From NCBI GenBank assembly GCA_018897195.1, contig JAHILH010000002.1, positions 1-55,511 on the forward strand: 55,511 nucleotides of DNA, read 5' to 3'. The position numbers and the translations under genes were made by a program. Under the pieces are notes generated by a model that saw nothing but the letters and a program-made list of their open reading frames with translations, did no database searches and was not told the DNA's origin. The first letter of the stretch is position 1, and each line of letters opens with the position of its first letter. Origin of the DNA: Patescibacteria group bacterium. GTDB taxonomy: Bacteria > Patescibacteriota > Patescibacteriia > Patescibacteriales > UBA12075. Below, one piece after another: positions 14,501 to 46,073 of this stretch.

Positions 14501-17500
14501 CTACACAGCCGGTATCGTCTTGTGTAGCTGGTACGACCTGGGCGGCTTGTGCAAGCAAGATTTGGCAGTCGGCTAGTTCGACCGGTGATTATCGGGTAAC
14601 GCCCTATACAGGTACTACCACTATTTCGACGATTGTTCCCGATGGTGATTATAAGTGGCAAACAATAGCCTGTGATTTGTCAGCAAATTGTTCTAGTTGG
14701 GTGACTTATAATTCAGTGGTGCCAAATTTTAAGATAGACACTACTAATCCAACGGCGCCAGGGGCTTTGACAATTACAGCCAAGGATTCACGAAGTGTAA
14801 CCTTATTATTTGGGGCATCCACCACGGAGGCGAATTTTTCGCAGTATAAGATTTATTATAAGATTGGTGCCAGTGGGGTATCAGAGTCTGATTTACTATG
14901 GTCATCATCATCTGCTGCAAGCCTTGGCTTTCAAAACTATAATGGTGCAACTAGTACGACTATAACTGGATTGGCTTCAAGCACGCAGTATGTCTTTAAT
15001 ATTTGGGCCTATGATTTGGCTGGCAATAAGGCTAGTTCCACTACGCAAGTGTCAACAACAACTGATGCAGCCTATATCATTACGCAGCGGTCATTTTTAT
15101 TAGAAAATGATGATGGTGTGACGGTTAATACTAATACAGCAGAAGTGGCAGCTAGCACCTCTTTGACAAATCTGAATATCGGTGAGCGCTTGAATGCTCG
15201 TATCCAAATTGATAATACTGGTGGAGATTTAACTGGCAATAAGATTTACAAACTGCAGTATGAAAACGTGACCGATGCGCCTGGCACCTGGGTGGATGTT
15301 GGGGCAACGACGCAGATTGCTTATTCAGATGCTTTGTCTGGAGCGAGTGGTGATATTGCCAGCACTTCAAAGGCAGTCGCTAGTGCATACACCTGGGTTA
15401 ATGGTCGTTTTTACAAGAACACTAATTTAACGGCTAATTTTGACTTAGGCAAAAATGTTTACACAGAATTTATTTTTGCGCTTAAGAATGACGCTGCCTT
15501 AGCCGGAAAGACTTATCGTTTGCGTTTGTTTAATTCAACTGATAATTCGCCGCTGAATGCCTATTCCAATTATCCGATTTTTACCACAATTGCGACGGAG
15601 ACTAAGGCTTATTCCAAGGAATCAATGGTAGCCTTGCCATCTAGTAAGGCGGGTTTGAATTATTATCTTGATCCGCAGGGCTATGTTGATACAGTGGCTG
15701 ATGATGCAGTGCGAGATTCAATATCATCATTTGCGCAATATGCGGTTTTCAATTTTGCGACTAAGCACTCAACCAACACGAGCGCGATTACGGCAACTTG
15801 GAACGGTCAGTCTAGTTTGTCGCCGTTGTTTGGTAACATTGTTTTGCAGGTTTATCGTTTTGGTACAGTTAATAATTGGGTAACCGTGAGTACTGAGGCA
15901 ATGGCGGCGGCTAATACAGATTTTAATATCTCTGGTAATATTAATGCCAAGGTCAGTGAATACTATAGTATAAACAATTGGACTTATTGGCGCGTTTATC
16001 AGGTGTCTGGCACGCAGACCTTGCGTACTGATGCTGTTAATGTGGTATTTTCAGCACCAACGCCAACCGTTAGTCAGCGTCATTATCGTTGGCGAAATAA
16101 TGATGGCACGGAAGCAACCGCAACTTGGCTTGAAACTGAGGATATTGGTAATCCGACCGTAGGGGCGGCTTTGGCGATTGGCAGTAGCACGCGTGTTCGT
16201 ATATCCGTTGCAGATATTTCCAGTGGCGCGGCTAATAATTATCAATATCGTTTAGAATATGCACCGACCGCTGCTAATTGTGCGACTGATCCAGGTGGTT
16301 GGATAGCAGTACCGGCGACAACGGCAACGACTGAACATTTTGTGATGGCGACCAGCTCTCTAACAGCTAATGGTTCAACAACTGTGATGCGCTTGGCTAA
16401 TGCAGAGGGCTACACATCAACTAGTGGTTTTATGGTGGCTAATCCATCAAATGCAAGCGCTAATCTTTCCTTGGTTGAAAATCAATATACAGAAAATGAA
16501 TATATCATAAAAACAACCAGTAACGCCTTAATGGGGAATACTTATTGCTTCCGTGTCACTAATGCCGGCGTGGCTTTAAATAATTATAATATTTATCCGG
16601 AAATAACCTTGGCCGGAATTTCCAACAATGCTCCGACTTTTACCGTTAATCCAGTGGATAACGGTTCAGCCACAGGCTCGCCAACTAATTATGGTGGGAT
16701 GGTTAATTTTGCGGCGACAGCCCAGGATGCCGATAATGACAGTTATTATTTAGCGATTTGTAAAACCAATAGTATTACTGGTGGTAATGCGGCGCCACCA
16801 ACCTGTACTGGTGGTAATTGGTGTATTTCAACGTTAGCTTCATCCTCGGTTGAGGCTGATTGTGATTATACAGTTGCAACAAGCACGGAGAATAATGCCT
16901 GGTACGCCTATGCTTGTGATTATCGATCCGGTGTTGGTTCGTCTCGTTGTTCTGTGGTTTCGCAGGGTGGTTGGGACAATGAAGACGATTCTCCTTTTGT
17001 GGTGAATAATCCACCAGCTTTTTCAGCGGTTGTAACGACGAATAATAATCAAAATCCAGGCAGTAATTTCACCATCACTACAACATCTTCTGATACGGAC
17101 AGTGTGGGCGGTGCTGATACCTTGACTTTATTTGTTTGCACGATTAATTCCGCCGATTATAACGGCTGTACGATTGCGACCAGTACTGTTTGTTCAGCGA
17201 TAGCCACCAGTTCGCCAAATGCCAAATGTTACTACCAGGATACAGCACCGTCTCCATCAGGACCGACAACTTACTATGCCTTTATTTTCGATAGTCATAA
17301 TTTAGCCTCAACGGGTAATTCTAAGAGCAATTCTTATTCCATTAATAATGTCGCACCGACTATTGGTCCATTGGTTTTACATAATGCCACTGATATTACC
17401 TTACTAATGAAGGGCAGTGATACAAATGTTCAATCAATTAATCAAACTGTTACCGATACGAATGGTTGTCAGTCGTTAGTGAGCGCTACCGCGGTTACCT

Positions 17501-31388: not shown

Positions 31389-33734
31389 ATGAAACAAGCG
31401 ACTTTTAAAAAAATGAGTAAAAAATTCAAAGACTCTTTGGCTGCGGTGATGATTTTCACGCTAGTCATGAGTCTTTTTTCATTGAGCTTTGTTACAACTT
31501 CTTTGGCTACGGCTCAATCTACATTTACGGCGTCTGAAACAGTTCCTAATTCCGCAGTCGGCGCTGATACGCAAGCCGCAGTTGCGGCAACCACGGTTGC
31601 TAATATAACTAGTTCGGAAGCAGGCTTAGAGGCGATAACCGGCATAGTTGGGTATACTGTAAGTACTGGTGCGGCTGGCGATATTGTCTTCACGCATACA
31701 GGGACAGCCATTGATGGTAATCCGGTCTATGAAGAAGATCTTGATGGAAATGGCACATATGATGATGTGGTGGCCAATATTGCTAATACTGATAGTGTGG
31801 TTGGTAATGCCGCCGTGCAATCACAGACAGACATTACGATTGATACCGCCTTTGCCGATGGTCATACCTTGGTTATTGATAATTGTACGATTTCATTTAC
31901 TGATGGCGCTGTCGTTGATACTGATTGTTCAGATGATGCTGCTGCCGTGGATACAACTGCTGCGGGTAGTTATGACACCGCTGTCGAACAGGCTGATTAT
32001 CTAGCTACTTTTAGTGGCTTGGATAATTATGCATTTAGCAATGGAGCTGGAGCTGGAGATGCGGTATTTCGAATTACGCATTCAACTGTAGCCGTAGATG
32101 GTAATCCAGCTGAAAGCAGTGGAATAACAGATGCCGACGGTAGGGTAACGGCTGCAGTTGTGGTTGCTGGTGAGGCGATGATTCAGTCAGTTAATACAAT
32201 TGCTATCACGGGCGATATCACTAGTGGAGCAAAGATAAGGTTTAATGGAGTTTTGGTAATTACGTTTACCGGAAATACTTCAACAGATACGGATGCTAGT
32301 AATGACACGGCTTCAATTAGTCCTTTTCAAAGCGCGGGCGCTCAGGTTGATACTGTAACCCCTGCAAATATTGAAGTGGGCGATGTTTTTACGGTCACAA
32401 TTGGTGGCACTGATTATGTAGCTACTGCCACTGCGGCGACTGTTCTGAATATTGTGGAGTTATTGCAACCCTTAGTTGATGCTGATGCAGCGGTGACCTG
32501 TACTGAAGATGACACTAAAATTACTTGTACTGCTGATACGGCTGGCACTGCATTTACTTTGACGGCAGCGGCTGTTAATGCAACCGACATTGCTCAAGAA
32601 GTGACATTTACTCCCTCCAGCGTTGTTAGCAGCGAAACGTTTAATGTGGTAATAAATGGCACTACTTATAGCTTTAAGGCGACCGCGGCGACTGCGCAAA
32701 ATGTTGTTGAGGGTTTGCAACCTTTGATTGATGCGAATGCGGCTGTGACTTGTACCGAGGATGACGTTATGGTTATTTGTGTGGCGGATGTGGCTGGTAC
32801 TGCTTTTACTTATAGCGCTAGTGTTACCGAGGCGCCATCATCTGGCGGTGTTATTACACCTACGCCCTTACCGCCAATAGTTACAGCAGTCAATGTTCCG
32901 TTGACAATCTCGACAGGACAATCAGGGACAATGACGTTAACCTTTGAAGATGCTACTATGATAAAGATTGAGGTGCCAAAGGGTGCAGTCGCCGGTCTGA
33001 CGACGTTTAATGTGGAAATGAGTATGGCAACTGGCAATGAGATGCCAGCAAGTGGCACGGTAGCTGTCTTGGTTGGAAATAAAATTTTCAATATTAATGC
33101 CAGGGATAGTAAGCATAATATTGTAAAAAATTTTTCCGGCGATTTAGTTGTAACTGTTTCTTTGCCAGAATTAACCACTAATACATCGGGCCTAGGTGTG
33201 TATTGGCTTAATGAGGTGAGCGGACTATGGGTTTTGGTGCCAGGCGCAGATTTCGCAAGCACTGCTGGTTTGGTTACCTTTAGCATAAGTCATTTAACTA
33301 AGTTTGCAGCGATAAACGCAATTAATACACCTGGGCTAATTTCAACTCCAGGCGGAACTAGTGTTTCTGTCGAAGAGCCAACTTTGATTAGTAAGAAAAT
33401 TTATACTGATGGTACCTTGGTACGAACCCCAGACAAGAGAATTTATGTAATTATTAGTGGCAAGCTACAACATATAACAACTTTGCAAGAACTTATTCAG
33501 TATATTGGCAAAAAAATTATCAATGTTGGTTATGGCAATCTTGGTGGCTATGAAAAAATTGTTCCAGCGGCAAAGAAGTATGCTGATGGCACTCTACTTC
33601 GCGCCACTAACAAGAAGATCTATGTCGTTATGAATGGCAAAAAGAAGCAAGTTATGAATCTGGTTGAATTGCGAGCAAAACATGCTAATAAACCAATTCA
33701 TAATGTTTCTGAAAGTATTTTGGGTCAATATTAA
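31389..33734 (+). CDS. Secreted repeat protein (781 aa) with C-terminal duplicated motif
   Basis: A hydrophobic N-terminus (SLAAVMIFTLVMSLFSLSFV) is followed by an Ala/Thr/Asp-rich acidic beta region. Two tandem units of ~80 residues occur near 325-470 (each with GTxYxxxATAAT, QPLxDAxAAVTCTEDD). A ~140-residue domain follows (~505-640, with LTISTGQSGTMTLTFEDAT, resembling ZU5/GAIN-flank beta domains). The tail (~665-781) has two copies of a motif of the form YxDGTLxRxxxKxIYVxxxGKxxxxxxxxEL, a unit I associate with CPR secreted proteins. No enzyme motif is seen. It probably acts on the cell surface. A perfect hairpin terminator follows. Confidence 0.75.
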   Translation: MKQATFKKMSKKFKDSLAAVMIFTLVMSLFSLSFVTTSLATAQSTFTASETVPNSAVGADTQAAVAATTVANITSSEAGLEAITGIVGYTVSTGAAGDIVFTHTGTAIDGNPVYEEDLDGNGTYDDVVANIANTDSVVGNAAVQSQTDITIDTAFADGHTLVIDNCTISFTDGAVVDTDCSDDAAAVDTTAAGSYDTAVEQADYLATFSGLDNYAFSNGAGAGDAVFRITHSTVAVDGNPAESSGITDADGRVTAAVVVAGEAMIQSVNTIAITGDITSGAKIRFNGVLVITFTGNTSTDTDASNDTASISPFQSAGAQVDTVTPANIEVGDVFTVTIGGTDYVATATAATVLNIVELLQPLVDADAAVTCTEDDTKITCTADTAGTAFTLTAAAVNATDIAQEVTFTPSSVVSSETFNVVINGTTYSFKATAATAQNVVEGLQPLIDANAAVTCTEDDVMVICVADVAGTAFTYSASVTEAPSSGGVITPTPLPPIVTAVNVPLTISTGQSGTMTLTFEDATMIKIEVPKGAVAGLTTFNVEMSMATGNEMPASGTVAVLVGNKIFNINARDSKHNIVKNFSGDLVVTVSLPELTTNTSGLGVYWLNEVSGLWVLVPGADFASTAGLVTFSISHLTKFAAINAINTPGLISTPGGTSVSVEEPTLISKKIYTDGTLVRTPDKRIYVIISGKLQHITTLQELIQYIGKKIINVGYGNLGGYEKIVPAAKKYADGTLLRATNKKIYVVMNGKKKQVMNLVELRAKHANKPIHNVSESILGQY

Positions 33735-33840: not shown

Positions 33841-35535
33841 ATGAAGTCAAAAATTTTATATTTCAATCTGGCTATTTTTATTATAGTGGCAGCCTCTGTG
33901 TTCGCGGCTGGTTTTTTGTTGATAAAAAGCACATTGCCGACCTCAGCTGCTGATACTGACACGACAACAATTGATGATAAGGTACCTCCCGTTATTTCTA
34001 ATATTAAAATTGAAAACACAACAGCAACTTCAACGGAAATTTCATGGGAGACTGATGAGAATGCCGATTCGATGATTAATTTTGGCCTGGATAAGCGCTA
34101 TGGTGTTGAGCGTGAGCCGCGAGCTGACAAGATTAAACATACTATTCTTTTGGAAGATTTATTGCCGGGGCAGAATTATTATTTTCGAGCTATTTCAACT
34201 GATGCAGTTGGAAATCAAGGTATTTCTAATGATTTTAGTTTTTTAACTACTGGTGAAAGTAATAATAACGTCAGTTTGGATAGTAAAACTGGTTACGCAG
34301 CCAAGATATTGGAAACTGGTTTTGGTGGCTTGCGTGAGAAGATATTAGAATTGGGCAAAGGTGGCTTGAGCGCGGTGGAGAAAGAACAATTATTAAATAT
34401 GGTGGATGAGTTAGCCAAAGAGGTAAGCTTGGATAAGGGCTATAAGGATAGTCGTATTGGCGACCAGGCAGAAAATATTACGAACCAAATTGTGGAAAAT
34501 ATCGGTCAAATTACCAGTGAAGGTGACTTGAAAGAAATTGATCAGGCAGTCAAGCAAAGAGCAGCGGAAATTTCTAAGCCACCAGAGATTATTTTGGATA
34601 ATGCAACTGTAGAGGTCGGCATTGATTATGCGATTATTTCTTGGGCGACCGATCGAGAAGCAAACTCAATGGTGTCAATTGCTAAAGAGGGTGACTATGA
34701 ACCAGATGCCGAAGATCCATATGTTTGGAAAGAGGGCGAGCCAACTGAATATGTTCTAGGACATCAAATAACGATAACTGGTTTGATACCGTCAATGGTT
34801 TATCATTTCCAAGTATCATCAGCTGATGAAATGGGCATGACTGGCAAGAGCTCGGACAAGAGTTTTAAAACTAAATCAGTAGCTCCGGAGATTTATAATG
34901 TGCATACGTCTAAAATTGAAGAAGAGTCAGCCACGATTGGTTTTATGACCAATGTGCCATGTTCAGCTATTATCGAGTACAAAAATTTAAATACCAACGA
35001 AACAAAGATGGAAGGTAACTCTTCATTTTTGACAGTACACTCTGTGCATTTGAAGAATTTAACCTTTGATACTTATTATTCTGTTATTGTTCGAGTTGAG
35101 AGTGAATCCGGCGAAAAGGCGGTGAGTGCGCCAATTACCTTTATCACCATCAAGGATGAGTATGCGCCCGTAATCACTAAAGTAAACACTGAGTCAACAC
35201 TTTATCCTGGTTCGGAGAATAAAGTCCAAACTATTGCTAACTGGTGGACAGATGAGCCAGCTAAGTGTCAATTGTTTTATCACCAAGGCTTAATATCAGC
35301 TGATGAGCCATCAGCCTTGCCTATTGAGGATGGTTATAATTTGAAACACGTGGAAGTAATGACTAACTTTTTACCAGCTAGTGTTTATAAATATTGGATT
35401 ATTTGTGAAGATTCAGCAAGGAATAAAAAGAAGTCTGACGATTTTACAATGTTAACGCCGAGTCAAGAAGAAAGTATCATCGATATTATTATCAAGAACT
35501 TTGAGCAACAGTTTAGTTGGCTTAAGAAGAAATAG
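33841..35535 (+). CDS. Secreted fibronectin-III-like domain protein (564 aa)
   Basis: One N-terminal TM/signal (LAIFIIVAASVFAAGFLLI) is followed by four FN3-like domains (~46-140, ~247-345, ~346-430, ~437-545) with the purple-acid-phosphatase-like N-terminal signature (ATSTEISWETDENADSMINF). A helical, charged segment (~150-245) separates the first two. The C-terminus is an amphipathic helix (IIDIIIKNFEQQFSWLKKK). It precedes an ABC ATPase/permease pair by ~55 nt and may be transcribed with it, so it could be a partner or substrate of that exporter. This is inferred from position only. Confidence 0.75.
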   Translation: MKSKILYFNLAIFIIVAASVFAAGFLLIKSTLPTSAADTDTTTIDDKVPPVISNIKIENTTATSTEISWETDENADSMINFGLDKRYGVEREPRADKIKHTILLEDLLPGQNYYFRAISTDAVGNQGISNDFSFLTTGESNNNVSLDSKTGYAAKILETGFGGLREKILELGKGGLSAVEKEQLLNMVDELAKEVSLDKGYKDSRIGDQAENITNQIVENIGQITSEGDLKEIDQAVKQRAAEISKPPEIILDNATVEVGIDYAIISWATDREANSMVSIAKEGDYEPDAEDPYVWKEGEPTEYVLGHQITITGLIPSMVYHFQVSSADEMGMTGKSSDKSFKTKSVAPEIYNVHTSKIEEESATIGFMTNVPCSAIIEYKNLNTNETKMEGNSSFLTVHSVHLKNLTFDTYYSVIVRVESESGEKAVSAPITFITIKDEYAPVITKVNTESTLYPGSENKVQTIANWWTDEPAKCQLFYHQGLISADEPSALPIEDGYNLKHVEVMTNFLPASVYKYWIICEDSARNKKKSDDFTMLTPSQEESIIDIIIKNFEQQFSWLKKK

Positions 35536-35543
35536 AATTAATG

Positions 35544-35581
35544 CTCCCTCACCCCAGCCCTCTCCCGGCGGGGCGAGGGAG
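35544..35581. repeat. GC-rich palindromic repeat, copy 2
   Basis: CTCCCTCACCCCAGCCC... ending GGGGCGAGGGAG lies nine bases after the FN3 gene stop and ten before the ABC ATPase ATG. It differs from the reverse complement of 43188-43225 at one base. Confidence 0.85.
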
Positions 35582-35590
35582 ATACAAAAA

Positions 35591-36916
35591 ATGCCAGAAC
35601 CAATTATACAAGCTAAAGGATTAGAGATTACCTATAACCTTGGAAAAGAAAATGAATATAAGGCGACTTGGGGGGTAGATTTTGAAATCTATCCTGGGGA
35701 GTTTATCGCTTTTTTTGGTCCATCCGGTTGTGGCAAGTCAACAATCATGTATACTATCTTGGGAGTGTTAGCGCCGTCGGGCGGACAGCTCTTAGTGAAG
35801 GGTGAGAATCCTTATTCGTTTTCGCCGGAAGAAATGGTAAATTTTCAAACACAGACAATCGGGATTATTTATCAAGCCTTTTTTCTTATCCCGTCGTTGT
35901 CGGTAGTGGATAATGTCGCTTTACCGCAAATTTTTCACGGCACCTCACCAGCCAAGCGTAATGCCTGGGCACTGCAATTGTTAAAGCGTTTTGGCATGGA
36001 TGGAGCAGGCAACAAGTTTGCTGATAACTTATCGGGTGGACAGAGTCAGCGTGTTTCTGTAGCCAGAGCCTTGGTAAATAATCCGGATATTTTATTAGCG
36101 GATGAGCCGACTGGTAACCTTGATAGTGTATCTACAAAACAAGTAATGGACTCCTTGGAGGAGATTAATATGATTGATAAGCGCACGGTAATATTGATTA
36201 CGCACAACGCAGCGCAGTTGTCTTACGCGCATCGGGTCTTTTATTTTAAAGATGGCCTTTTGCAACGTGTGGTGCCGAATCCCGAGAAAAAACAAATTGC
36301 CAAGATTGATAGACAAAAGATTCTAATTACCGAAATGGATAAATTATCTAAGATTTATCCTTATAATACGCCAACCGAGTTAAAGGTAAAAAGTATTGTT
36401 AATTTTTTGACGCAAGATTTTACCTTTGATCAAATATTAAAATTAGAGGAGTTTACACAGTTAATGGTGGAGCGACTAATTGACAAACCGAAATATCTCA
36501 ATGCCCTGATTCAAAGTTTTGCCGATGGTGGCGTTGGTATTGATGAGGACGTAGCCATGGTAATGGCGGATAAGGTGGAAAAAGTATTGATGCAATCAGA
36601 GGATGCGCGTCGTTTCCGTCGCCGCTTTTCGACTAATAATTTTTTTTCCCAGGAGAACGTTTTGATAAATAGACTGACGGGTTATGTTGTTCAAGAATAC
36701 CCAGAAGTAATGACCACGATTCAAAAAAGAAGATTAAGGGAATTAGTTTATAATCGTATTGCCGGTTTGATTAGTCGAGATGAGTTTGAGGCCTCCCTGG
36801 CGACACCTTTAGAAGGTGGCGGTTTAGGATTTGTTAAGAAGAAAGCGAGAAAATTAACTTTATATTTTGAAAAAATATTAATTCAGGGCTCAGAAGATAA
36901 AGGGCACGGACACTAA
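35591..36916 (+). CDS. MacB/LolD-type ABC transporter ATPase with ~200-aa C-terminal extension
   Basis: The ATPase domain (~1-235) has Walker A GPSGCGKST at 43-51, the Q-loop, signature LSGGQSQR at 147-154 and Walker B ILLADEP followed by TGNLDS. It belongs to the family that pairs with FtsX-like permeases for export or lipoprotein handling. Residues ~240-441 form an extra helical domain ending in GHGH, not found in the usual ~230-residue members; I do not recognise it. The start is set at the ATG 35591 because the frame upstream is only the translated palindromic repeat. The permease follows after 4 nt. Confidence 0.88.
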   Translation: MPEPIIQAKGLEITYNLGKENEYKATWGVDFEIYPGEFIAFFGPSGCGKSTIMYTILGVLAPSGGQLLVKGENPYSFSPEEMVNFQTQTIGIIYQAFFLIPSLSVVDNVALPQIFHGTSPAKRNAWALQLLKRFGMDGAGNKFADNLSGGQSQRVSVARALVNNPDILLADEPTGNLDSVSTKQVMDSLEEINMIDKRTVILITHNAAQLSYAHRVFYFKDGLLQRVVPNPEKKQIAKIDRQKILITEMDKLSKIYPYNTPTELKVKSIVNFLTQDFTFDQILKLEEFTQLMVERLIDKPKYLNALIQSFADGGVGIDEDVAMVMADKVEKVLMQSEDARRFRRRFSTNNFFSQENVLINRLTGYVVQEYPEVMTTIQKRRLRELVYNRIAGLISRDEFEASLATPLEGGGLGFVKKKARKLTLYFEKILIQGSEDKGHGH

Positions 36917-36920
36917 TTTT

Positions 36921-38114
36921 ATGATGCGACCGCAGGATACAATTTCATTAGCAACGCGCATGTTTCGAACGCGACCGGCACGAACCTGGTTGACGATTTT
37001 TGGTATCGGCGTTGGTATTGCGGCGGTGGTTATTTTGGTGGGCCTGGGTTATGGTTTGCAAGGTGTATTGTTGGAGCAGATTGTGTTTGGTGATGCGATG
37101 TTGAGTTTGAATGTGGTGACACCACCATCAAAGGTTGTAGTGATTAATAAGGAAGAAGTTGTTAATTTAAAGAAGCTTGATAATGTTGAAGATGTAGCGC
37201 CGATGGCCGCTTTTGCGACACAGATTACTTTCGGTAATTTGAATGGTAGTGCCATGCTCAACGGTGTTGATCCAACTTATTTCCGTTACGCCGGCGTGGT
37301 TGCCCAGGAGGGAAAATTATTTGACAAGGGGGAGAATGATGCAGTTGTTTTATCATCAGCCGCCTTAAAACTCTTTAACAAGGAAGCGAAGGAGATTATT
37401 GGACAAAAGATGAGCTTTAAGGTTTTTTTGCCGATTGAAGGGACTACGGACACACAGGAAGTGCCATTAAATAAAGAGTATATAGTAAAAGGTATAATTG
37501 CTGACGAAACCTCAATTTTTGCTTATATTCAATTAGGGGAGTTTACTTCTAATTTTTCAATCCCTTTTTATGAGAAAGCCAGGGTCAAGGTGACTGATCG
37601 TGCCTATTTGGATACCGTGGAAGCAGTTATTATTGGTAAAGGCTTCGTGGTGTCATCTCTGTCTAAGACAGTTGATCAAGCTAATAAAATCTTTAGTGGT
37701 ATTCAGGTGATGTTGGCTTTGTTTGGTGGTATCGCCTTGATTGTATCGGCGATTGGTATGTTTAACACGATGACGGTAACACTCTTGGAACGTACCAAAG
37801 AGATTGGAATTATGCGGACGATTGGTGGATCGCCCCTGAAGATTAAAGTCATGTTTTTAACTGAGTCAATGTTGATGGGTACGCTCGGTGGCCTGGTTGG
37901 CATAGGAATGGGCGTTGGTGGGGGATTAACGATTAATTTTATTTTAAGTATTGTGGCCGTGAACATGGGCGGTATGGCCATGAGTTTATTTAGATTTCCA
38001 ATTTGGTTTTTGACTTTTATTGCCGTGTTCTCGATGGTGATGGGATACCTTACTGGACTATTTCCGTCTAAGCGAGCAGGGTCACTTAATCCGCTAGACG
38101 CGATTCGAGGATAA
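36921..38114 (+). CDS. MacB-like ABC transporter permease (FtsX domain)
   Basis: This is a 397-residue integral membrane protein with the MacB layout. It has one TM near the N-terminus (TWLTIFGIGVGIAAVVILVG), an outer MacB-type domain (~50-260) and three TM helices at the C-terminus with the FtsX-like sequence (ERTKEIGIMRTIGGSPLKI). It pairs with the ATPase just upstream. The substrate is unknown; surface proteins lie on both sides. No separate membrane-fusion protein (MacA) is encoded nearby, which fits a cell without an outer membrane. Confidence 0.88.
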   Translation: MMRPQDTISLATRMFRTRPARTWLTIFGIGVGIAAVVILVGLGYGLQGVLLEQIVFGDAMLSLNVVTPPSKVVVINKEEVVNLKKLDNVEDVAPMAAFATQITFGNLNGSAMLNGVDPTYFRYAGVVAQEGKLFDKGENDAVVLSSAALKLFNKEAKEIIGQKMSFKVFLPIEGTTDTQEVPLNKEYIVKGIIADETSIFAYIQLGEFTSNFSIPFYEKARVKVTDRAYLDTVEAVIIGKGFVVSSLSKTVDQANKIFSGIQVMLALFGGIALIVSAIGMFNTMTVTLLERTKEIGIMRTIGGSPLKIKVMFLTESMLMGTLGGLVGIGMGVGGGLTINFILSIVAVNMGGMAMSLFRFPIWFLTFIAVFSMVMGYLTGLFPSKRAGSLNPLDAIRG

Positions 38115-38119
38115 TTTTT

Positions 38120-38623
38120 ATGCAATTAAACTCTTTAACTAAAAACGAAAAACAAGTTGCCATTATTTCGATTATCATGGCTTGTTTTTTGCTTGTTTGG
38201 CATATTCATGGTTTTTTTCCTAAAAGAGTTGCAAAAAATATTGAAATAGATGAGGCAGTGGGGCAACAAATTCCTTTGCCGCCAAAATTTTCACGCATAA
38301 CTTTTTTTCATTCAGCTAAGCCGATTTGCACACTGGCAATTCCTGAGGCTTGGGAGGGAAAGTATCGCTTACGAGACAACGGTAGTGAAGCTCATTTTTT
38401 GTATATTCAAGAGGAAGGTGATCCAGAATTATTTTATATTAAAAAATATAAAAAAAATGGAAAGATGGATGAGGTAAATGAGAAGAAAATTTTGGAAACT
38501 AAAAGTAATGTATATGTGGCTGGCTTATCCACACAAGGTGTTGACAAGTTTGTGCACAAAGACGAATTTGAAAAAATGACAAAAGAACTTGCCGAGGTAT
38601 TGAATAATTTTAGATGTTTCTAG
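38120..38623 (+). CDS. Hypothetical membrane-anchored protein (167 aa)
   Basis: One TM helix near the N-terminus (VAIISIIMACFLLVWHIHGF) and an outer domain of ~125 residues with two cysteines (KPICTLAIP and the penultimate-residue NFRCF). No family is recognised. It starts 6 nt after the permease stop and so probably belongs to the same operon. Confidence 0.7.
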   Translation: MQLNSLTKNEKQVAIISIIMACFLLVWHIHGFFPKRVAKNIEIDEAVGQQIPLPPKFSRITFFHSAKPICTLAIPEAWEGKYRLRDNGSEAHFLYIQEEGDPELFYIKKYKKNGKMDEVNEKKILETKSNVYVAGLSTQGVDKFVHKDEFEKMTKELAEVLNNFRCF

Positions 38624-38704
38624 GGGTATTTTTTATTTTATATTAGCTTTTTTTCTATCAATATTTTAATGTCAAAGAAATATTAAAAATAGATTAAGGA
38701 GCTT

Positions 38705-38752
38705 TTGAACAGAATTGCTTTTTATGCTATAATAATAGTAATCTGTGGATAA
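38705..38752 (+). promoter_or_regulatory. Promoter and TGTGGATAA site of the 38807 gene
   Basis: TTGAAC (38705-38710), 17-nt spacer, extended -10 TGCTATAAT (hexamer 38728-38733), then after 10 nt a perfect DnaA-box sequence TGTGGATAA (38744-38752). The GTGG can also fold with CCAC downstream. Confidence 0.6.
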
Positions 38753-38806
38753 GATTTTTCCACGTTAAAATCAAATTAAAATATTTTATAAATTAAATAC
38801 ATCCCC

Positions 38807-40591
38807 ATGTCCAAAAAAATAAAAATGCACATAAAGAGGTCGATGCCGTATTTCATGATTTTGAGTTTGATCATGAGTAGTACTGTTATTGGTCTAGTCT
38901 TTAATTTCAATACGAGTACCAAAAAACTGGTTAATGAATTATTTAGACCAGAGGCGCAGGCTCAAAACGACACTGCGACCACTACGGTTACGGTTCGAAA
39001 CGCGGCCCCGACTATCACTATTAAACCAGCCGAGGTTTTTGCGGCTGGCCTGGGTTCAACCTCTACTACGCCAGTTAATATCGGCGCTTCGATTGGATTT
39101 TCAGTCACGGCTGATGATATGGAAGATAATAGCTATTACTTGATTGTTTGTACTTCGACTACTGCGACAGCTGGTGTTGCTGGTGCTGCGCCTACTTGTA
39201 GTGGCGGGGTTGCTAATACGCTCTGTGTTTCTGGCCTTACGGGTGATACGATTCAGGCAACTTGCACTTATGGTTCAACTGTGGGCGCGAACGAAACCAA
39301 GGATTGGTACGCCTTCGCCTGCGATAATCATGCTACTGAGGCCGATTGTTCTCCCTATAGTCAAGGATCGGCGGTGGGCGTAGATGCAACATCCAGCCCG
39401 ATGTATATTAATCACGCTCCAGTTTTTACAACCGGTTCAACAACAGTTGATTTTCGACAAGCGGGAAACAATCCTTTTACATTTACGGCTACAACTACCG
39501 ATACAGACACCTTGGGTGGATTTGATGTGATACAATATGATGTGTGTTCGACTAACTCTTGGGCAACGACTACTGGTTGTGCCGCGGCAACTGTTTGTTC
39601 AGCAACTTCAACGATAAGTGGCGGTACGGCCGTTGTTTCTTGTCAGGCGACCACTACTATCCCAACTGTTGATAAGGCTTACCACTATTGGGGTTTTGTA
39701 AAAGATTGGCATGCCCTAGCTGCCTCATCTGGAAATGCGGTAGATAGAACTTATACGGTTATTAATACAGCTCCGGTAGTTTCTAGTGTTGTGGTTAATG
39801 GTGGTAATCCATTTACGCCGAATATGAAGAATTCAGCTACGACCACGATCCATATAACAGCAACGGTTAGTGACGACAATAGTTGTAGTGACTTGACTCA
39901 GGCTACAAGTACTTTGTATTTATCCAACGTTGTTGGTTTACAGAATTGCACCGCTGATAACGATAATTGTTACCAAATTTTATCAGCATCGTGCACTCAG
40001 AGTGCTTGTGGCGGCTCAACGACAACCAAAGACGCTTTATATGATTGCACTGCTGGTATTGCTTTCCACTCTATTCCAACAGATGCCAGCGCTAATAATA
40101 GTCATGTTGCCGAAAACTGGCTGGGCGCAGTGGCAGGAAAAGATGAAGGTGTTGCAACTGTGGCCACTTCAACCATTGGTCAAGAATTAGCGACAGTACA
40201 GGCTATTGCTGTTACTGAGCTAGCTATCCCTTATAATACTATTAAGGGTGGTCAAGATTCGGGTGCTTATAATGCCACCACTACGGTTATTAATTATGGC
40301 AATTGTCCGATAAATTCGCAAGTTAGTGGAACCGACATGACGGGTCCAGCGATAATTCCGATTCTTAACCAAAAATATGATTTAGCTCCGGCTACTTATG
40401 CATCCTTGACTAATGTTGCATCAGCAGTTCCTACGACGCTTGATATTAATGCGCCTAAGCCAACTACTAGTGTAATTAACATACAGGCAGGGATCTATTG
40501 GGGTATTAATATTCCCGCCGGAACTCTTTCTGGTAATTATGCAGGTACAAATGCCTTTGACTCGATTATTGACGGATCAGTTAGTTGGTAA
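38807..40591 (+). CDS. Surface protein (594 aa), stand-alone paralogue of the giant protein's C-terminus
   Basis: After an N-terminal hydrophobic segment (~13-35, ISMPYF-like region in SMPYFMILSLIMSSTVIGLV) the whole protein aligns in order with the last ~520 residues of the 4207-aa protein. Shared landmarks are NxAPT near the start, DxxDNSYYLxxC, WYAxACD, DTDTxGGxD, YLSNVxGxxNC, AxxxDxCYxI, PTD, YGNxPIxxxxSGTDMT, YWGIxIPxG and GTNxF near the end. Both proteins end in Trp. About 18 cysteines sit in matching pairs. It has no C-terminal anchor. It may be a cell-surface subunit using the same end domain as the giant protein. A terminator follows. Confidence 0.8.
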   Translation: MSKKIKMHIKRSMPYFMILSLIMSSTVIGLVFNFNTSTKKLVNELFRPEAQAQNDTATTTVTVRNAAPTITIKPAEVFAAGLGSTSTTPVNIGASIGFSVTADDMEDNSYYLIVCTSTTATAGVAGAAPTCSGGVANTLCVSGLTGDTIQATCTYGSTVGANETKDWYAFACDNHATEADCSPYSQGSAVGVDATSSPMYINHAPVFTTGSTTVDFRQAGNNPFTFTATTTDTDTLGGFDVIQYDVCSTNSWATTTGCAAATVCSATSTISGGTAVVSCQATTTIPTVDKAYHYWGFVKDWHALAASSGNAVDRTYTVINTAPVVSSVVVNGGNPFTPNMKNSATTTIHITATVSDDNSCSDLTQATSTLYLSNVVGLQNCTADNDNCYQILSASCTQSACGGSTTTKDALYDCTAGIAFHSIPTDASANNSHVAENWLGAVAGKDEGVATVATSTIGQELATVQAIAVTELAIPYNTIKGGQDSGAYNATTTVINYGNCPINSQVSGTDMTGPAIIPILNQKYDLAPATYASLTNVASAVPTTLDINAPKPTTSVINIQAGIYWGINIPAGTLSGNYAGTNAFDSIIDGSVSW

Positions 40592-40612
40592 AATATATAC
40601 AACATATTTTTA

Positions 40613-40644
40613 AAAAAAACGAGAAGATTTTCTTCTCGTTTTTT
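40613..40644 (+). terminator. Intrinsic terminator of the 38807 gene
   Basis: The 12-bp perfect stem AAAACGAGAAGA/TCTTCTCGTTTT with a TTT loop, followed by further T. Confidence 0.9.
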
Positions 40645-40669
40645 GATATTTAAAAGTTGTTTAGATAAT

Positions 40670-40727
40670 TTGCCTTAAAATTATATTTTATGTATAATAA
40701 TATTAAATTTACCATAGATGTGGATAA
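40670..40727 (+). promoter_or_regulatory. Promoter and TGTGGATAA site of the cohesin/dockerin cluster
   Basis: TTGCCT (40670-40675), 17-nt spacer, TATAAT (40693-40698), then a perfect DnaA-box sequence TGTGGATAA at 40719-40727. The distance here is 20 nt instead of 9-10. Confidence 0.5.
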
Positions 40728-40798
40728 GATAATATATAAAAAATTTAGTACATTAATTGCATAATTTGCACGAAATTTACTAATTTATTTAATGCGTA

Positions 40799-41851
40799 AT
40801 GATTAAACGTTTTGTTTTAGCTGTAGCATTGATAGGAGTTTTTGCCTGGAGCGGTGTTGTTCAGGCTGGTTTTGGTATTTCTCCGCCCTATGTGAAGCCT
40901 AAAAAAGCGGTTTTCCCTGGTTCTCATTATGAACAAAAAATAACCTTGCTAAGGTCAGAGGCTGATAGCGCAATGACGGCTGTAATTACAGTTACAGCTC
41001 CAGAGATGAGTGGTTGGGTGACCGTAGACAAAGGTTTTGAATTCGATATGCCTGCTGGTGAATTGCAGGTCCCAATGGTTGTTAAGGTGGATGTGCCGGC
41101 GAAGGCGGAAATAGGTAACTATAAAGGAAATTTTAATATTAGAATTGTACCTAAGGGGGCTAGTAAAAATCCTGGAGTGGCAATCGCCCTCGGTGCGCGC
41201 GTTGATATGGATATCGACGTGACCAATGAAAGGTTTTTTGATTTTGCTGTGCGCATGACGACTATTCCCGATATTGGAGTTTTGAGTCAGCCTTGGAATT
41301 GGAAGATTTTTTCTTACTTTTTTTATCGTATCGCCGTTGTGCTGAAAATTGAAAATATTGGTAACGTGGCTGCTGGTCCGACCAAGGTACACTTGGATGT
41401 GTATGACGTCGAGGATAAGAAAATGCTCGAGTCTTATGATGACACTAAGATTGAGAAAATAGATCCATTTGTTACCAAAGATGTTACGGCTGATTTTCCA
41501 ACTAAATTAGGAAAGGGTTATTATTGGGGAAGGATAACTGTCTATAATGGCAATGATATTGTTCACAAAGATAAAATTACTTTTGAAATTAAAGATCATG
41601 GTAAATTGAGCGGTTATAAGCATTGGTTGATGTTGGCAGGTCTTATTTTACTGGTATTATTGCTCGGTCTTTCCTTGGTTAAGGTTCGTGTTTGGAAATA
41701 TATTTTTATGATCGTATATGTTCTACTTTGGCCATTGCGTATTATTGGACGCTTATTATTGGGAATAAAAAATAAGGCAGTTGAGGGTTTTTGGGATAAA
41801 ATGGGGCAGAAGGCTGAAAAATATAAATCTGGAACCAGAAGAAAGCGATAA
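40799..41851 (+). CDS. Secreted beta-domain protein with C-terminal TM (350 aa), WxL-interacting-like
   Basis: A cleavable signal peptide (LAVALIGVFAWSGVVQAGF) precedes two beta-sandwich domains (~25-140 and ~165-270) and a C-terminal TM region (WLMLAGLILLVLLLGLSLV, with a second hydrophobic stretch) and basic tail (GTRRKR). The layout and the N-terminal GFGISPPYVKPKKAVFPGS recall DUF916/WxL-interacting proteins of Gram-positives, which hold other surface proteins; this is a resemblance only. It opens the cluster that encodes the dockerin and two cohesin proteins. Confidence 0.7.
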   Translation: MIKRFVLAVALIGVFAWSGVVQAGFGISPPYVKPKKAVFPGSHYEQKITLLRSEADSAMTAVITVTAPEMSGWVTVDKGFEFDMPAGELQVPMVVKVDVPAKAEIGNYKGNFNIRIVPKGASKNPGVAIALGARVDMDIDVTNERFFDFAVRMTTIPDIGVLSQPWNWKIFSYFFYRIAVVLKIENIGNVAAGPTKVHLDVYDVEDKKMLESYDDTKIEKIDPFVTKDVTADFPTKLGKGYYWGRITVYNGNDIVHKDKITFEIKDHGKLSGYKHWLMLAGLILLVLLLGLSLVKVRVWKYIFMIVYVLLWPLRIIGRLLLGIKNKAVEGFWDKMGQKAEKYKSGTRRKR

Positions 41852-41872
41852 AAATAAGTAGTATATTTTCCT

Positions 41873-43159
41873 ATGCGAATAAATTTTAATAAAATATATT
41901 ATATTGTTTTTGTCGTATTTCTGATTATTTTTTTATTCAGATCTTCTGAGGTAGTAAGAGCTGATCCAAAATTTTTACCAACCACTGTTGAAGTTTTGGT
42001 TTCTTGCGGTGATGGAACTGTTGATGCGGCTGCTGGTGAGATTTGCGATGTTGGCACACTTGGATCTTGGCCTGAAAATGTGGGCACAACTACCTGTCAG
42101 ATGTTTAAGGATGTTTTTAATAATCCGTTCGTAAGCGGAGTAATGCACTGTGCTACTGATTGTTACGCTTTTAATACAGAGGCTTGTTATACTTGTGGTA
42201 ATACATACAAGGAGAAAGAAGAAGGTTGCGATAAGCTTGATTTTGGTAATAGCACCTGTTTGACGCTTGGTTTTGATAGCGGGTCCTTGATTTGTACCCC
42301 ACAATGTCAGATTAGTACGATTAATTGTGTGGCGATGGCGCACGAAGGGGGCACCCCTGGTGGTGGTTCAATAGGTGGTAGCACTGGTGGAAGTAGTGGT
42401 TTGTCAACGGGTTTTAATCCTGGCGCCGATCAACCTAAAGCCGAGACTAAGATCACGGTTAAAGGAAAGTCTTATCCTAATTCCGATGTTCATGTATTAG
42501 TTGATGGCGTGGTGATTGGTATTGTTAAAGCAGACTCTAAAGCTGATTTTTATTTTGAATCAATTGACATAGCGCCTGGTGTTGCTAATTTTGGCTTCTG
42601 GTCCGAAGATGTGAGTGGTCTTAAATCTACTTTATTAACCATAACCCTTCGTATTGTCGCGGGCGCGGTTACAAATATTTCCGGTGTCTATATTGCACCC
42701 AGCATTGACGTCGATAAGCAATCGGTTAAACAGGGCGATAATGTAAAGATTTATGGACAAACAGTGCCGGGGTCAGACATAAAAGTTCATATCAATTCAC
42801 CGCAGGAGTTTATTGAGAAGATTGACAGTCAAGATGATGGTCGATACGAATTAGTTTTTAATACAGCGCCCTTAGAAGAAGATTTTCATACGGCTAAGGC
42901 ATATTTCGAAGTCACCGCCGAGGGTAATATTATTAAATCGGGATTTTCTAAATTAGTCAGCTTTCATGTGGGCAAAGAGGGAATTGCGCCAACACCTTGT
43001 CCAAACGGAGATTTAAATCATGACAAGCGCGTAAATATTACAGATTTTTCTATTTTGCTTTATAATTGGGGCACTAACAATGCTTGTTCTGACCAAAATC
43101 AAAATGGCACTGTCGACTTGATTGACTTTTCAATTATGATGTATTACTGGACAGGCTAG
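41873..43159 (+). CDS. Secreted protein with C-terminal type I-like dockerin
   Basis: A signal/TM (YYIVFVVFLIIFLFRSSEVV) leads to two Cys-rich CGxG...CD units (~44-150, same type as in the gene at 2-2368). A Gly/Ser linker follows (~157-185), then two Ig-like beta domains (~190-270 and ~275-370). Residues 375-428 form a dockerin: duplicated F-hand calcium loops DLNHDKRVNITD and DQNQNGTVDLID, each followed by a FSIxxY helix. Dockerins bind cohesins with high affinity; cohesin-like domains are encoded just downstream (43298, 44307) and at 20017. The gene starts 21 nt after the previous stop. Confidence 0.88.
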   Translation: MRINFNKIYYIVFVVFLIIFLFRSSEVVRADPKFLPTTVEVLVSCGDGTVDAAAGEICDVGTLGSWPENVGTTTCQMFKDVFNNPFVSGVMHCATDCYAFNTEACYTCGNTYKEKEEGCDKLDFGNSTCLTLGFDSGSLICTPQCQISTINCVAMAHEGGTPGGGSIGGSTGGSSGLSTGFNPGADQPKAETKITVKGKSYPNSDVHVLVDGVVIGIVKADSKADFYFESIDIAPGVANFGFWSEDVSGLKSTLLTITLRIVAGAVTNISGVYIAPSIDVDKQSVKQGDNVKIYGQTVPGSDIKVHINSPQEFIEKIDSQDDGRYELVFNTAPLEEDFHTAKAYFEVTAEGNIIKSGFSKLVSFHVGKEGIAPTPCPNGDLNHDKRVNITDFSILLYNWGTNNACSDQNQNGTVDLIDFSIMMYYWTG

Positions 43160-43187
43160 AATTAATTAAAAATTTTAAACAATGTTT

Positions 43188-43276
43188 CTCCCTCGCCCCG
43201 CCGGGAGAGGGTTGGGGTGAGGGAGTCGTCAACGAATAACTACCTCACCCTGTCCCTCTCCTGGCAAGGAGAGGGA
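43188..43276. repeat. GC-rich palindromic repeats, copies 3 and 4
   Basis: Copy 3 (43188-43225) is the reverse complement of the copy at 35544 with one change. Copy 4 (43243-43276) is a diverged unit in the opposite sense (CCTCACCCTGTCCCTCTCC...GGAGAGGGA). They face each other over 17 nt, between the dockerin and first cohesin genes, and could fold into a large hairpin in the mRNA. Confidence 0.8.
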
Positions 43277-43297
43277 ACTATGTAATTATCTTCATAT

Positions 43298-44341
43298 ATG
43301 TTAAAAAAAATCCTAATCATTTCTATATTTCTATTACTTCCATTTGCAACCAAGGCGTCTACGCTTTATTTTGAGCCAAAAGATGCCGAGGTTGGCAACG
43401 ATAGCAATTTCACAATGGATATTAAAATTGATGTCGAAGATTGTGTTAATGTGGTTGAGGGCTATATAGGTTTTGATAAGGACCATTATAAATTATTGGA
43501 TTTTATGACGGGAGTCTCAATTATTAATCTATGGGTAGAGCAACCACAAGAGACTGATTATGAAAAAATAAACAACAATGGACAATTCCATTTCTCGGGA
43601 GGTATTCCTGGTGGTTATTGTGGTAAGATTCCCGGCGACCCAGGTCAAAGTAATATTGTTGCGCGTTTAGTTTTTGCTAGCAAGAGTATTAGTCAGGGTA
43701 TTGATGAGGTGGTTGTTAGTGATGTGGTAATGCTGGATGGGACAAGAGTCTTGATGAATGATGGCCTGGGTACCGAGGATGCTAATTTGCAAAAAAATGA
43801 TGCTAAGGTAACTATTTCAAAGAGTATTATGCCCAATGACAAGGCTTGGCAGAATGAGATAAATGCAGATAAAACACCGCCAGAACCATTTGTGATTGAG
43901 TTACATCATAGTCCAACTATGTTTGATGGTAAATATAGCTTGGTTTTTTATACAACCGACAAGCAAAGTGGTGTTGATTATTATGAGGTTTTGGAAATCA
44001 GGCCAAATGAAGTAATTGGTGAAAAGCAAAAAAGAAATCCCCTTGATTATTTTGGGGTAGGAGAAAAAGTTGTTGGTTGGAAAAAGGCGCAGACACCGTA
44101 CTTATTAGAGGACCAGGATATGCGCAGCACGATAAAGGTTCGGGCCGTGGACAAGGCTGGTAATGAGCAAACGGTGGAGTATACACCGCCAGAATCAATA
44201 ATGAAGAAACCTTTTTATTTAAGGTGGAAAGTGTTTGGGCTGGTTATTGGCGTCTTGGTGTTTTTGTTGGGTTTTTTATATTTTAAAATAAGAAGAAATA
44301 ATAAATATGAGGAGGAAAATTATCAACACAATCTTCGGTAA
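43298..44341 (+). CDS. Membrane-anchored cohesin-domain protein (347 aa)
   Basis: A signal peptide (KKILIISIFLLLPFATKAS) precedes a cohesin-like domain (~22-175; STLYFEPKDAEVGNDSNFTM, VVEGYIGFD, VLMNDGLGTED). A second domain (~190-300) is Ig-like with the sequence FYTTDKQSGVDYYEV. A single TM near the C-terminus (FGLVIGVLVFLLGFLYFKI) and a basic tail anchor it. Cysteines in VEDCVNV and GGYCGKI may pair. Its end overlaps the start of the next gene by 35 nt, so the two are translated together. Confidence 0.82.
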   Translation: MLKKILIISIFLLLPFATKASTLYFEPKDAEVGNDSNFTMDIKIDVEDCVNVVEGYIGFDKDHYKLLDFMTGVSIINLWVEQPQETDYEKINNNGQFHFSGGIPGGYCGKIPGDPGQSNIVARLVFASKSISQGIDEVVVSDVVMLDGTRVLMNDGLGTEDANLQKNDAKVTISKSIMPNDKAWQNEINADKTPPEPFVIELHHSPTMFDGKYSLVFYTTDKQSGVDYYEVLEIRPNEVIGEKQKRNPLDYFGVGEKVVGWKKAQTPYLLEDQDMRSTIKVRAVDKAGNEQTVEYTPPESIMKKPFYLRWKVFGLVIGVLVFLLGFLYFKIRRNNKYEEENYQHNLR

Positions 44342-46073
44342 TATAATAATTGCATCTTTGATTTTTGGGGCGGTTAATATTTTTACTAATTCCGCGAGCG
44401 CTGCCGGCGCTTCATTGTATCTGACACCATCAACCGGAACCTATGTGATTGATGGGGAATTTACAATCTCGGTTAAATTAAATACAGGTGGTCAAGTGGT
44501 TAATGCAGCTGAGGGCGCATTAAGCTATGACGCTGCTCTTTTGGAGGCGGTTAGTATTAATCGCAATGGCGCAGTCTTTAACTTGTGGACCACTGAACCA
44601 GTTGCCACGGGTGGTAATATTAAATTTGGTGGCGGTGTGCCGATGCCTGGTTATAATGGTGTAAGTGGACATGTCTTGAGCGTGAAGTTTAAGGCTAAAG
44701 CGCCAGGCGTGGCCCAAGTTAATTTTACCTCTGGTGCAGTTTTGGCCAACGATGGTAAGGGTACAAATATTTTGGCTAGTATGGGTGTCGGTAGCTATAC
44801 AATTTCTCCAAAAATAGAAGCACCAACGTCAGGCTTGGAAGATAAGACTGTTGATAGTGACAAGGCACTGCAATTAATAAATGAGAAGGTTGTGGCTTCT
44901 GGTGAGGAATATAATCATCCTAAAATTGAATCAATAACCAATCCTGATCAAAATACTTGGTCAAAAAATCCTAATGTAAAATTTAATTGGATACTACCAG
45001 CGGGTACTAAGGATGTAGCTTTTGTTTTAAATAAAGAGCCGGTTTGGAATTTGGCAGCAAAATCTGAAGGGGCTTTGTCTGAGAAGGAATATGTTGGCGT
45101 AGAGGATGGTCTTTGGTATTTTCATTTGCGCTTTAAGGATGCGAAGAAGTGGGGCACAGTTGCCACTTATCGTGTCATGATTGATACGCGTCCGCCTAAT
45201 CCCTTGAATGTGAAGATTAATGATATCGGCGTTGGCGAGTGGCCGGAGTTATTGTTTAACGCCGCAGATGCTGAATCAGGTTTAGGTGATTATGAAATAT
45301 TTATTGGTAGCCTGGAACACCAGTCCTTTACCTTATCTGGACAAGAGACGATGTTAAAAATTTCGGCTTTAAGCGTTGGTGACCATACAGCCATGGTAAA
45401 GGCCAAGGATAAGGCAGGTAATGAAATTGTTTCAACAATAAAGTTTGTTATCAATCCAATTGAATCTCCAAAAATCTTAAGCTATCAAGAGGAAATGAGA
45501 TCAGCTAATGATTTTTATCTCAGCGGTACAGCTTTGCCAAATGTTGGCGTGATTTTATATTTACAAAGAGATAATGAGTTGGTGGCGAGTAGTACGGTGC
45601 GAAGTGATGCCAATGGCGCTTGGTTCTTTGTGGGTGATAAGAAATTAGCTAACGGACGTTATGTGGCCTGGGCCGAGGCAGTCAATGCCAATGGTATCAA
45701 GAGTAATCCGAGTGAGAAGGTGACCTTCATTGTTTCGCCACCAATCTTTGTTACGATCGGCAACTTTGTAATTAATTATTTCACAGTTTTCACAAGCTTG
45801 TTGTTCTTGATTGTTTTAATCATATTTCTGGTTGGCAAGGTTCGTGGTAGGTTAAAAAAAGAAACAGTTGAAGTGGAAAATGTCTCACGTACAAACCTAG
45901 ACGAGTTGGAAGCATTTATTGATCAAGAGTTTGCAAGATTGAAGAAATTTGAGGGCAAGGTTAATTACACGCAAGAGAAGAAAAAAATGAAAGACGGCTT
46001 GCGGGCACGGGTGGGGGCAGTTGAGAAGAAGATTTTGAAGGAAGTGAAGGATGTGGAGGATATTTTGAAGTAA
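44307..46073 (+). CDS. Membrane-anchored cohesin-domain protein (588 aa) with cytoplasmic coiled coil
   Basis: After a signal sequence (NIIIASLIFGAVNIFTNSAS) residues ~33-165 form a clear cohesin domain: ASLYLTPSTGTYVIDGEFTI, VNAAEGALSYDAALLEAV, GNIKFGGGVPMPGYNGVSG, VLANDGKGTNIL. Two or three Ig-like domains follow (~205-310, ~315-385, ~390-480). A TM (~500-520; VFTSLLFLIVLIIFLVG) leads to a ~70-residue charged coiled-coil tail inside the cell. It could thus tether dockerin-bearing proteins to the membrane. It is the last gene of the cluster; a terminator follows. Confidence 0.85.
   Translation: MRRKIINTIFGNIIIASLIFGAVNIFTNSASAAGASLYLTPSTGTYVIDGEFTISVKLNTGGQVVNAAEGALSYDAALLEAVSINRNGAVFNLWTTEPVATGGNIKFGGGVPMPGYNGVSGHVLSVKFKAKAPGVAQVNFTSGAVLANDGKGTNILASMGVGSYTISPKIEAPTSGLEDKTVDSDKALQLINEKVVASGEEYNHPKIESITNPDQNTWSKNPNVKFNWILPAGTKDVAFVLNKEPVWNLAAKSEGALSEKEYVGVEDGLWYFHLRFKDAKKWGTVATYRVMIDTRPPNPLNVKINDIGVGEWPELLFNAADAESGLGDYEIFIGSLEHQSFTLSGQETMLKISALSVGDHTAMVKAKDKAGNEIVSTIKFVINPIESPKILSYQEEMRSANDFYLSGTALPNVGVILYLQRDNELVASSTVRSDANGAWFFVGDKKLANGRYVAWAEAVNANGIKSNPSEKVTFIVSPPIFVTIGNFVINYFTVFTSLLFLIVLIIFLVGKVRGRLKKETVEVENVSRTNLDELEAFIDQEFARLKKFEGKVNYTQEKKKMKDGLRARVGAVEKKILKEVKDVEDILK

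Follow-up and report, generated by a model that had tools for sequence, protein, structure and literature searches.

A C-Terminal Ig-Like Domain Shared by Short and Giant Proteins of Patescibacteria and Its Linked Membrane Partner, a Candidate Docking Pair

A C-terminal domain (CTD) shared by short and giant surface proteins of Patescibacteria is encoded, across the phylum, almost always beside the gene of a membrane-anchored protein with two putative Ig-like domains, here termed P8. The arrangement points to a so far unrecognised means by which giant proteins are attached to the cell surface, with P8 as the linked partner of the CTD being the new element. Members of the Patescibacteria probably live on other cells or close to them, and the pair bears on how they keep their giant surface proteins attached. 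Giant-protein attachment becomes a binding question with two small expressible domains, and the CTD together with its linked P8 can serve as a marker for finding such surface proteins in any genome, one that also predicts the receptor. In addition, cohesin-dockerin pairs are placed in a conserved non-enzymatic locus of these bacteria.

Short and Giant Proteins with a Common Tail

The window, that is, the whole stretch of DNA analysed, is one contig of 55.5 kb from a genome of 1.17 Mb in six contigs. The genes of the CTD proteins, of P8 and of the locus described below, and the pilin-like gene, lie on its forward strand, with start codons taken from mechanical open reading frames (ORFs). The short CTD protein (594 aa, 38807–40591) comprises a hydrophobic N-terminus with a conserved PEAxA, three Ig-like domains and the CTD, as judged by translation, alignment and AlphaFold2. 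The giant CTD protein (4207 aa, 5554–18177) begins with a hydrophobic segment and continues in Ig-like repeats, fn3 among them, according to its translation and Pfam matches. BLASTP with composition adjustment aligned residues 63–585 of the short protein with residues 3689–4199 of the giant at 37% identity and 56% positives (259 bits, E 4e-78), bearing out the original prediction that the former is homologous to the last ~520 residues of the latter (residues 3689–4207, 16618–18174). The motifs SGTDMT and GTN(A/N)F, the cysteines and the terminal Trp were likewise found in both. The alignment had been described as full length, but it leaves out the first ~58–62 residues of the short protein; this stretch of ~60 residues, consisting of the hydrophobic N-terminus and then PEAxA, is largely kept in other short proteins. 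A genome-wide search gave 39% identity to the giant over residues 59–587 of the short protein, with no third copy of the tail in the assembly.

The short gene had been regarded as a duplicate of the end of the giant one. The paralogy is real, but a tree of 42 tails rules out a recent duplication, as the giants of the class stand apart from the shorts. In this tree, the 12 giants of the class form one clade with 100/100 support, with the 15 short proteins of the class falling outside it, and seven giants and eight shorts from other classes form a separate well supported group with its own short/giant split. As the same split recurs inside both groups, it must have arisen at least twice, unless gene conversion has occurred. 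Judged from these tails, the tree shows the paralogy to be an old event, predating the divergence of genera. Two further descriptions held in part. The proteins had been called otherwise different, which is half right, since they share tails of ~520 residues; and both do end in Trp, but as a general mark this residue fails, being typical of this order and ending just 46 of 122 complete proteins across the class and phylum.

The tail was detected in 11 of the 12 genomes of the family, most of which have exactly one short protein, in frames of ~590–610 aa, and a single giant, whose open frames reach ~5950 aa, so that the pair constitutes a stable family feature. A profile of the last 130 residues found no further CTD proteins in the family genomes, and one genome of the same family (G008), 99% complete, is without the short and giant CTD proteins and without P8. 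In named genome contigs, a single-sequence search gave no match and an alignment search gave 39 loci, almost all of them from Patescibacteria. The closest named relatives of the 594-aa protein belong to Candidatus Falkowbacteria and Parcubacteria, followed by Kaiserbacteria, Uhrbacteria, Magasanikbacteria, Dojkabacteria and others. A contig labelled Planctomycetota (L189) carries two CTD proteins and P8 and is probably a misbinned Patescibacteria contig.

The Conserved Core and Its Place in the Protein

The conserved core of the short protein corresponds to residues 299–594 (39701–40588), a cysteine-rich Ig-like domain followed by the CTD, as delimited by an alignment of 116 homologues (A5) and AlphaFold2. 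With these 116 sequences the core was modelled at pLDDT 94.0 and pTM 0.86, whereas with 15 sequences the CTD was poorly modelled (pLDDT ~48). According to the model, the core is composed of two all-beta Ig-like domains and spans ~290 residues, which replaces the conserved unit of ~120 residues first proposed. Profiles place the CTD itself, of ~130 aa, at 40199–40588 in the short protein (A2/A4) and at 17785–18174 in the giant. In the smallest natural CTD protein, of ~330 aa, just the cysteine-rich Ig domain and the CTD follow a hydrophobic segment at the N-terminus; full CTD ORFs cluster mostly near 300–340 and 490–650 aa, with some larger. In one genome, five CTD proteins of ~340 aa stand in tandem (L106:5831-11327), a lineage-specific expansion with a P8 gene nearby (L106:11539-13380).

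Pfam and NCBIfam searches with both proteins and all CTD alignments yielded fn3 in the giant alone, the rest being at chance level. PDB sequence profiles of the alignments (A1, A3, A5, A7) gave no significant relative, and Foldseek with the core model against PDB and viral libraries returned generic Ig-like folds only. No earlier description of the domain was found in the open-access literature. The domain thus appears to be unnamed, lying outside Pfam, NCBIfam and PDB sequence relatives. Among weak Pfam matches, GH123_N-type Ig profiles match both the CTD and P8 more often than WxLIP profiles do.

It had been anticipated that the domain would always end secreted proteins and would not occur in the middle of proteins. 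This is nearly the case: among 122 non-redundant CTD proteins with a complete 3' end, the CTD ends at most 25 aa from the stop in 117, and an N-terminal hydrophobic segment is present in 76 of 77 full CTD ORFs, with signal-peptide cleavage judged by eye and hydropathy. However, the domain is internal in a minority of five proteins from two genomes. Four occur in one Kaiserbacteria genome (L202:7716-9605, L202:9654-11567, L203:7893-9935 and L205:7770-10970) and the fifth in another genome (G190; L139:169-2502, reverse strand). In these proteins, an N-terminal segment, Ig and CTD are followed by RCC1-, kelch- or LVIVD-like repeats, beta-propeller repeats named by eye. The five internal CTDs refute a strict C-terminal sorting signal and leave one that needs a free C-terminus unsupported. 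Since the module needs no free C-terminus, an interaction domain is favoured over a sorting signal that is processed, and a binding module remains compatible with internal CTDs.

P8, a Linked Membrane Protein

The gene directly after the short CTD gene encodes P8 (40799–41851), the proposed CTD receptor, with a signal peptide, two domains, a C-terminal transmembrane (TM) helix and a basic tail, as read from translation, alignment and hydropathy. The first domain begins GFGISPP and the second carries the motif ENxGN. Both are predicted to be Ig-like from their sequence and weak Pfam matches, and hydropathy places hydrophobic segments at both ends in 17 of 17 P8 proteins.

Profile searches for the CTD and P8 covered the same 381 genomes of the class and found 38 strong carriers of each, with 33 genomes carrying both (Fisher p 6e-37, kinship ignored); weak CTD matches, with E between 1e-3 and 1e-6, such as those in family f14, were left out of the counts. 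The carriers are spread over many family codes, and some families, f30 and f70 for example, hold positives as well as negatives. Where one contig holds both genes, as in 31 genomes, the nearest CTD–P8 pair always lies at most 2.6 kb apart on the same strand, with the CTD gene preceding P8 in 17 and following it in 14. Outside the class, strong CTD matches occur in 15 genomes and strong P8 matches in 13, and all 13 P8 carriers have a CTD located 15–270 bp away on the same strand (distances by hand from coordinates). Among CTD genomes, five within the class and two beyond it, in part fragmented assemblies, lack a strong P8. Some loci (L185, L188, L190, L198, L207) keep the CTD and P8 with no ABC/MacB, dockerin or cohesin gene nearby, which marks P8 as the constant partner. 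One family has two genomes in which a single ORF joins P8 to a CTD protein (L100:11879-14035, L104:5709-7931) in the order signal, P8 domains, TM, basic loop, TM, Ig and CTD; this may represent one operon-fusion event. Taken together, co-occurrence and adjacency show a functional linkage between the CTD and P8, as distinct from contact.

Organisation of the Locus

In this order and in other classes, a conserved gene order comprises a large CTD protein, an fn3 protein, an ABC ATPase, a MacB/FtsX permease, in some cases a small protein, a ~600-aa CTD protein, P8, a dockerin protein and two cohesin proteins. The locus is split in the window, where the giant gene at 5554–18177 is separated from the remainder at 33841–46073 by other genes, those of tRNA synthetases and ribosomal proteins among them, and this accounts for the 20 kb gap between giant and short genes. 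The remainder begins with the fn3 protein (33841–35535), which has an N-terminal membrane segment, followed by the ABC transporter ATPase (35501–36916) and the MacB/FtsX-type permease (36921–38114), all three assigned by Pfam and synteny. Synteny also identifies a small fast-evolving protein with an N-terminal hydrophobic segment (38120–38623), often found at the same position.

Downstream of P8 lies a Cys-rich protein ending in a type I dockerin (41873–43159). Dockerin_1 matches 10 of its 11 orthologues and lies above the cut-off in the genome search, and solved dockerins in the PDB match the profile, so that by sequence it can be considered a bona fide type I dockerin protein. It is followed by a cohesin-like membrane protein with a C-terminal TM (43298–44341), recognised by homology to the second cohesin protein, and by this second one, a cohesin and Ig protein also with a C-terminal TM (44307–46073). 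The latter scored 24.5 bits against a Cohesin cut-off of 24.1 in the genome search and 21.3, below cut-off, in a single-protein scan; Cohesin matches 8 of 17 members of its family, at best with 2.6e-9. The whole genome holds only two dockerins and three cohesin matches, and a second cohesin-dockerin gene pair is found in it ~0.8 kb apart (L208, G000:C1:546737-547063; L212, G000:C1:547872-548006). Neither cohesin-dockerin nor WxL-like loci were found described for Patescibacteria in the open-access literature.

Additional aspects of the neighbourhood were observed. A type IV pilin-like gene (4652–5194; N_methyl Pfam match, synteny) lies directly upstream of the giant and occupies the same position in three other genomes (L027, L031, L033), which may hint at a connection of the giant protein with pili. 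A secreted repetitive protein of 781 aa with no Pfam match (31389–33734), encoded just ahead of the split locus, ends in two KxYxDGTLxR repeats that look like a surface-layer or wall-binding module. In two relatives (L026, L030), a second ABC and MacB gene pair adjoins the first.

A Proposed Docking Pair and Its Alternatives

There is about an even chance that the CTD serves in non-covalent docking, with membrane-anchored P8 holding CTD proteins at the envelope; the homology, gene positions, linkage and domain architectures are observed, and from them we infer the binding and its stoichiometry. In the proposed mechanism, the shared C-terminal region would act as an Ig-like docking module. Client proteins, whether giant multi-Ig, ~600-aa or, in other lineages, ~330-aa proteins, would be exported through an N-terminal Sec-type signal, after which the CTD with its neighbouring Ig domain would bind P8 non-covalently and the client would be held on the external side of the membrane. 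The dockerin protein and the two membrane-anchored cohesin proteins would form a second docking pair in this organism, and the MacB-type ABC transporter might help assembly or sense load. The product of the locus would then probably be a cell-surface adhesion complex built from two docking pairs, its adhesive function being deduced. The cohesin-dockerin pairs and the ABC/MacB genes suggest a larger complex in this order, with their roles as guesses. A docking pair would explain how one domain serves proteins from 300 up to ~6000 aa in size, why an Ig protein that is short and membrane-proximal is the partner, and why no sortase is needed and domains can be added on either side. In its favour count the P8–CTD linkage, the lack of both in one family member, the fused ORFs, the WxL-like layout, weak WxLIP matches of P8 and of CTD cores, the absence of a sortase and the N-terminal segments in 76 of 77 ORFs. 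Against it, generic Ig-like sequence alone may produce weak WxLIP matches, and an N-terminal segment left uncleaved would already provide a tether, the CTD then being needed for something else. As regards the original prediction of a sorting or docking module, docking is supported by a candidate receptor adjoining CTD genes across the phylum, but a sorting signal with a free C-terminus is not.

It is unlikely, though conceivable, that CTD proteins form a filament or layer on the surface and self-assemble through the CTD, with P8 as a basal or assembly protein and the giant as tip or tape. The better Foldseek matches of the core do include donor-strand pilins (a CfaB fusion, TM 0.33–0.38; CsuE) and the biofilm scaffold RbmA, and CTD proteins are multicopy tandem paralogues in several genomes, such as the row of five mentioned above. 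However, these TM-scores are low and generic Ig-like folds dominate the match list, most genomes of the window's family have one short and one giant protein, and the locus lacks a chaperone or usher. A less probable case is that the tails are ordinary Ig-like surface domains inherited together, with P8 linkage reflecting a generic surface-gene cluster. Ig-like folds recombine freely and both the CTD and P8 match generic Ig profiles weakly, but the specific CTD–P8 pairing over many families and several classes exceeds what generic clustering would give, as does the conserved C-terminal place of the domain.

Readings in which the CTD is a signal fare no better. It is improbable that the MacB/ABC/fn3 machinery, whose genes lie between both CTD genes, reads the CTD as a C-terminal signal for export or sorting: in this order and other classes the fn3-ABC-MacB genes do immediately precede the ~600-aa CTD gene, and 117 of 122 proteins have the domain at their C-terminus, yet the N-termini of CTD proteins are Sec-type, ABC/MacB genes are not within 8 kb of many CTD and P8 loci, and the CTD lies internally, ahead of beta-propellers, in five proteins. 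Moreover, in monoderm cells MacB-type pumps are not known to transport giant proteins in folded form. Sorting through a covalent or proteolytic step at the C-terminus, similar to LPXTG/sortase or to the type IX secretion CTD, would agree with one end domain on different surface proteins, but is very improbable. A sortase (PF04203) was not found in the genome while three control genomes gave matches, and sortase anchoring was rejected on this basis; the CTD, of ~130 aa, folds as a complete Ig-like domain, lacks a TM and basic tail at its C-terminus, and can be internal.

Non-covalent docking on P8 thus remains the preferred reading. The fuller proposal is of a two-component, non-covalent anchoring system of the Patescibacteria's own that has no sequence relation to WxL/WxLIP; giant adhesins would be docked on a membrane Ig receptor through a terminal Ig-like domain, which would be coupled to a second docking pair, of cohesin and dockerin, and to a MacB-type ABC machine. 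The chances of this proposal are put at somewhat under even.

Comparison with Known Systems

The closest analogy is found in the WxL clusters of Firmicutes, in which two clients, one smaller and one large with the domain at its C-terminal end, go with a WxLIP partner arranged as DUF916-DUF3324-TM (PMC10599100). The locus described here resembles this layout in its small client, its large client with a C-terminal domain and a partner, P8, with a signal peptide-Ig-Ig-TM arrangement, presumably likewise with no covalent anchoring. In sequence, however, WxL was not among the best 25 of 45 weak Pfam families (E<=1) matched by the 116 CTD cores, and the CTD has a single W-[GK]-[ILV] near its end in place of a dual Trp-x-Leu motif. 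WxLIP_PGBD gave a weak match in 3 of the 116 cores (best 0.0044). P8 matches WxLIP_HBD (PF11797) weakly, below significance, in 5 of 17 members (best E 0.038), and PF06030 is not among the 25 families listed for these 17. As membership by sequence fails, the CTD–P8 pair may be said to work like WxL/WxLIP and not to be one. The Patescibacteria also differ in clients that reach ~4000–6000 aa and in a locus that adds ABC/MacB, fn3, dockerin and cohesins.

With its type I dockerin and cohesin proteins, the locus recalls cohesin-dockerin systems, cellulosomal and non-cellulosomal. It differs in that the cohesins are single on membrane-anchored proteins and that it encodes neither enzymes nor a scaffoldin with several cohesins; as for the CTD, it is not a cohesin or a dockerin. 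One conserved end domain on otherwise different secreted proteins is likewise a feature of type IX CTD and LPXTG sorting. In contrast to LPXTG proteins, CTD proteins end without a TM, in a genome devoid of PF04203, and unlike the type IX CTD the domain is not strictly terminal, 5 of 122 being internal; the PorU-type Peptidase_C25 gave no match in the genome, nor in the control. Giant repetitive surface proteins have been described in nano-sized bacteria (Patescibacteria, Omnitrophota) and proposed as adhesins, with most Omnitrophota giant ORFs being poorly conserved and having few annotated domains (PMC10066038). In contrast to those giants, a conserved end module and a linked membrane partner have been identified for the proteins described here.
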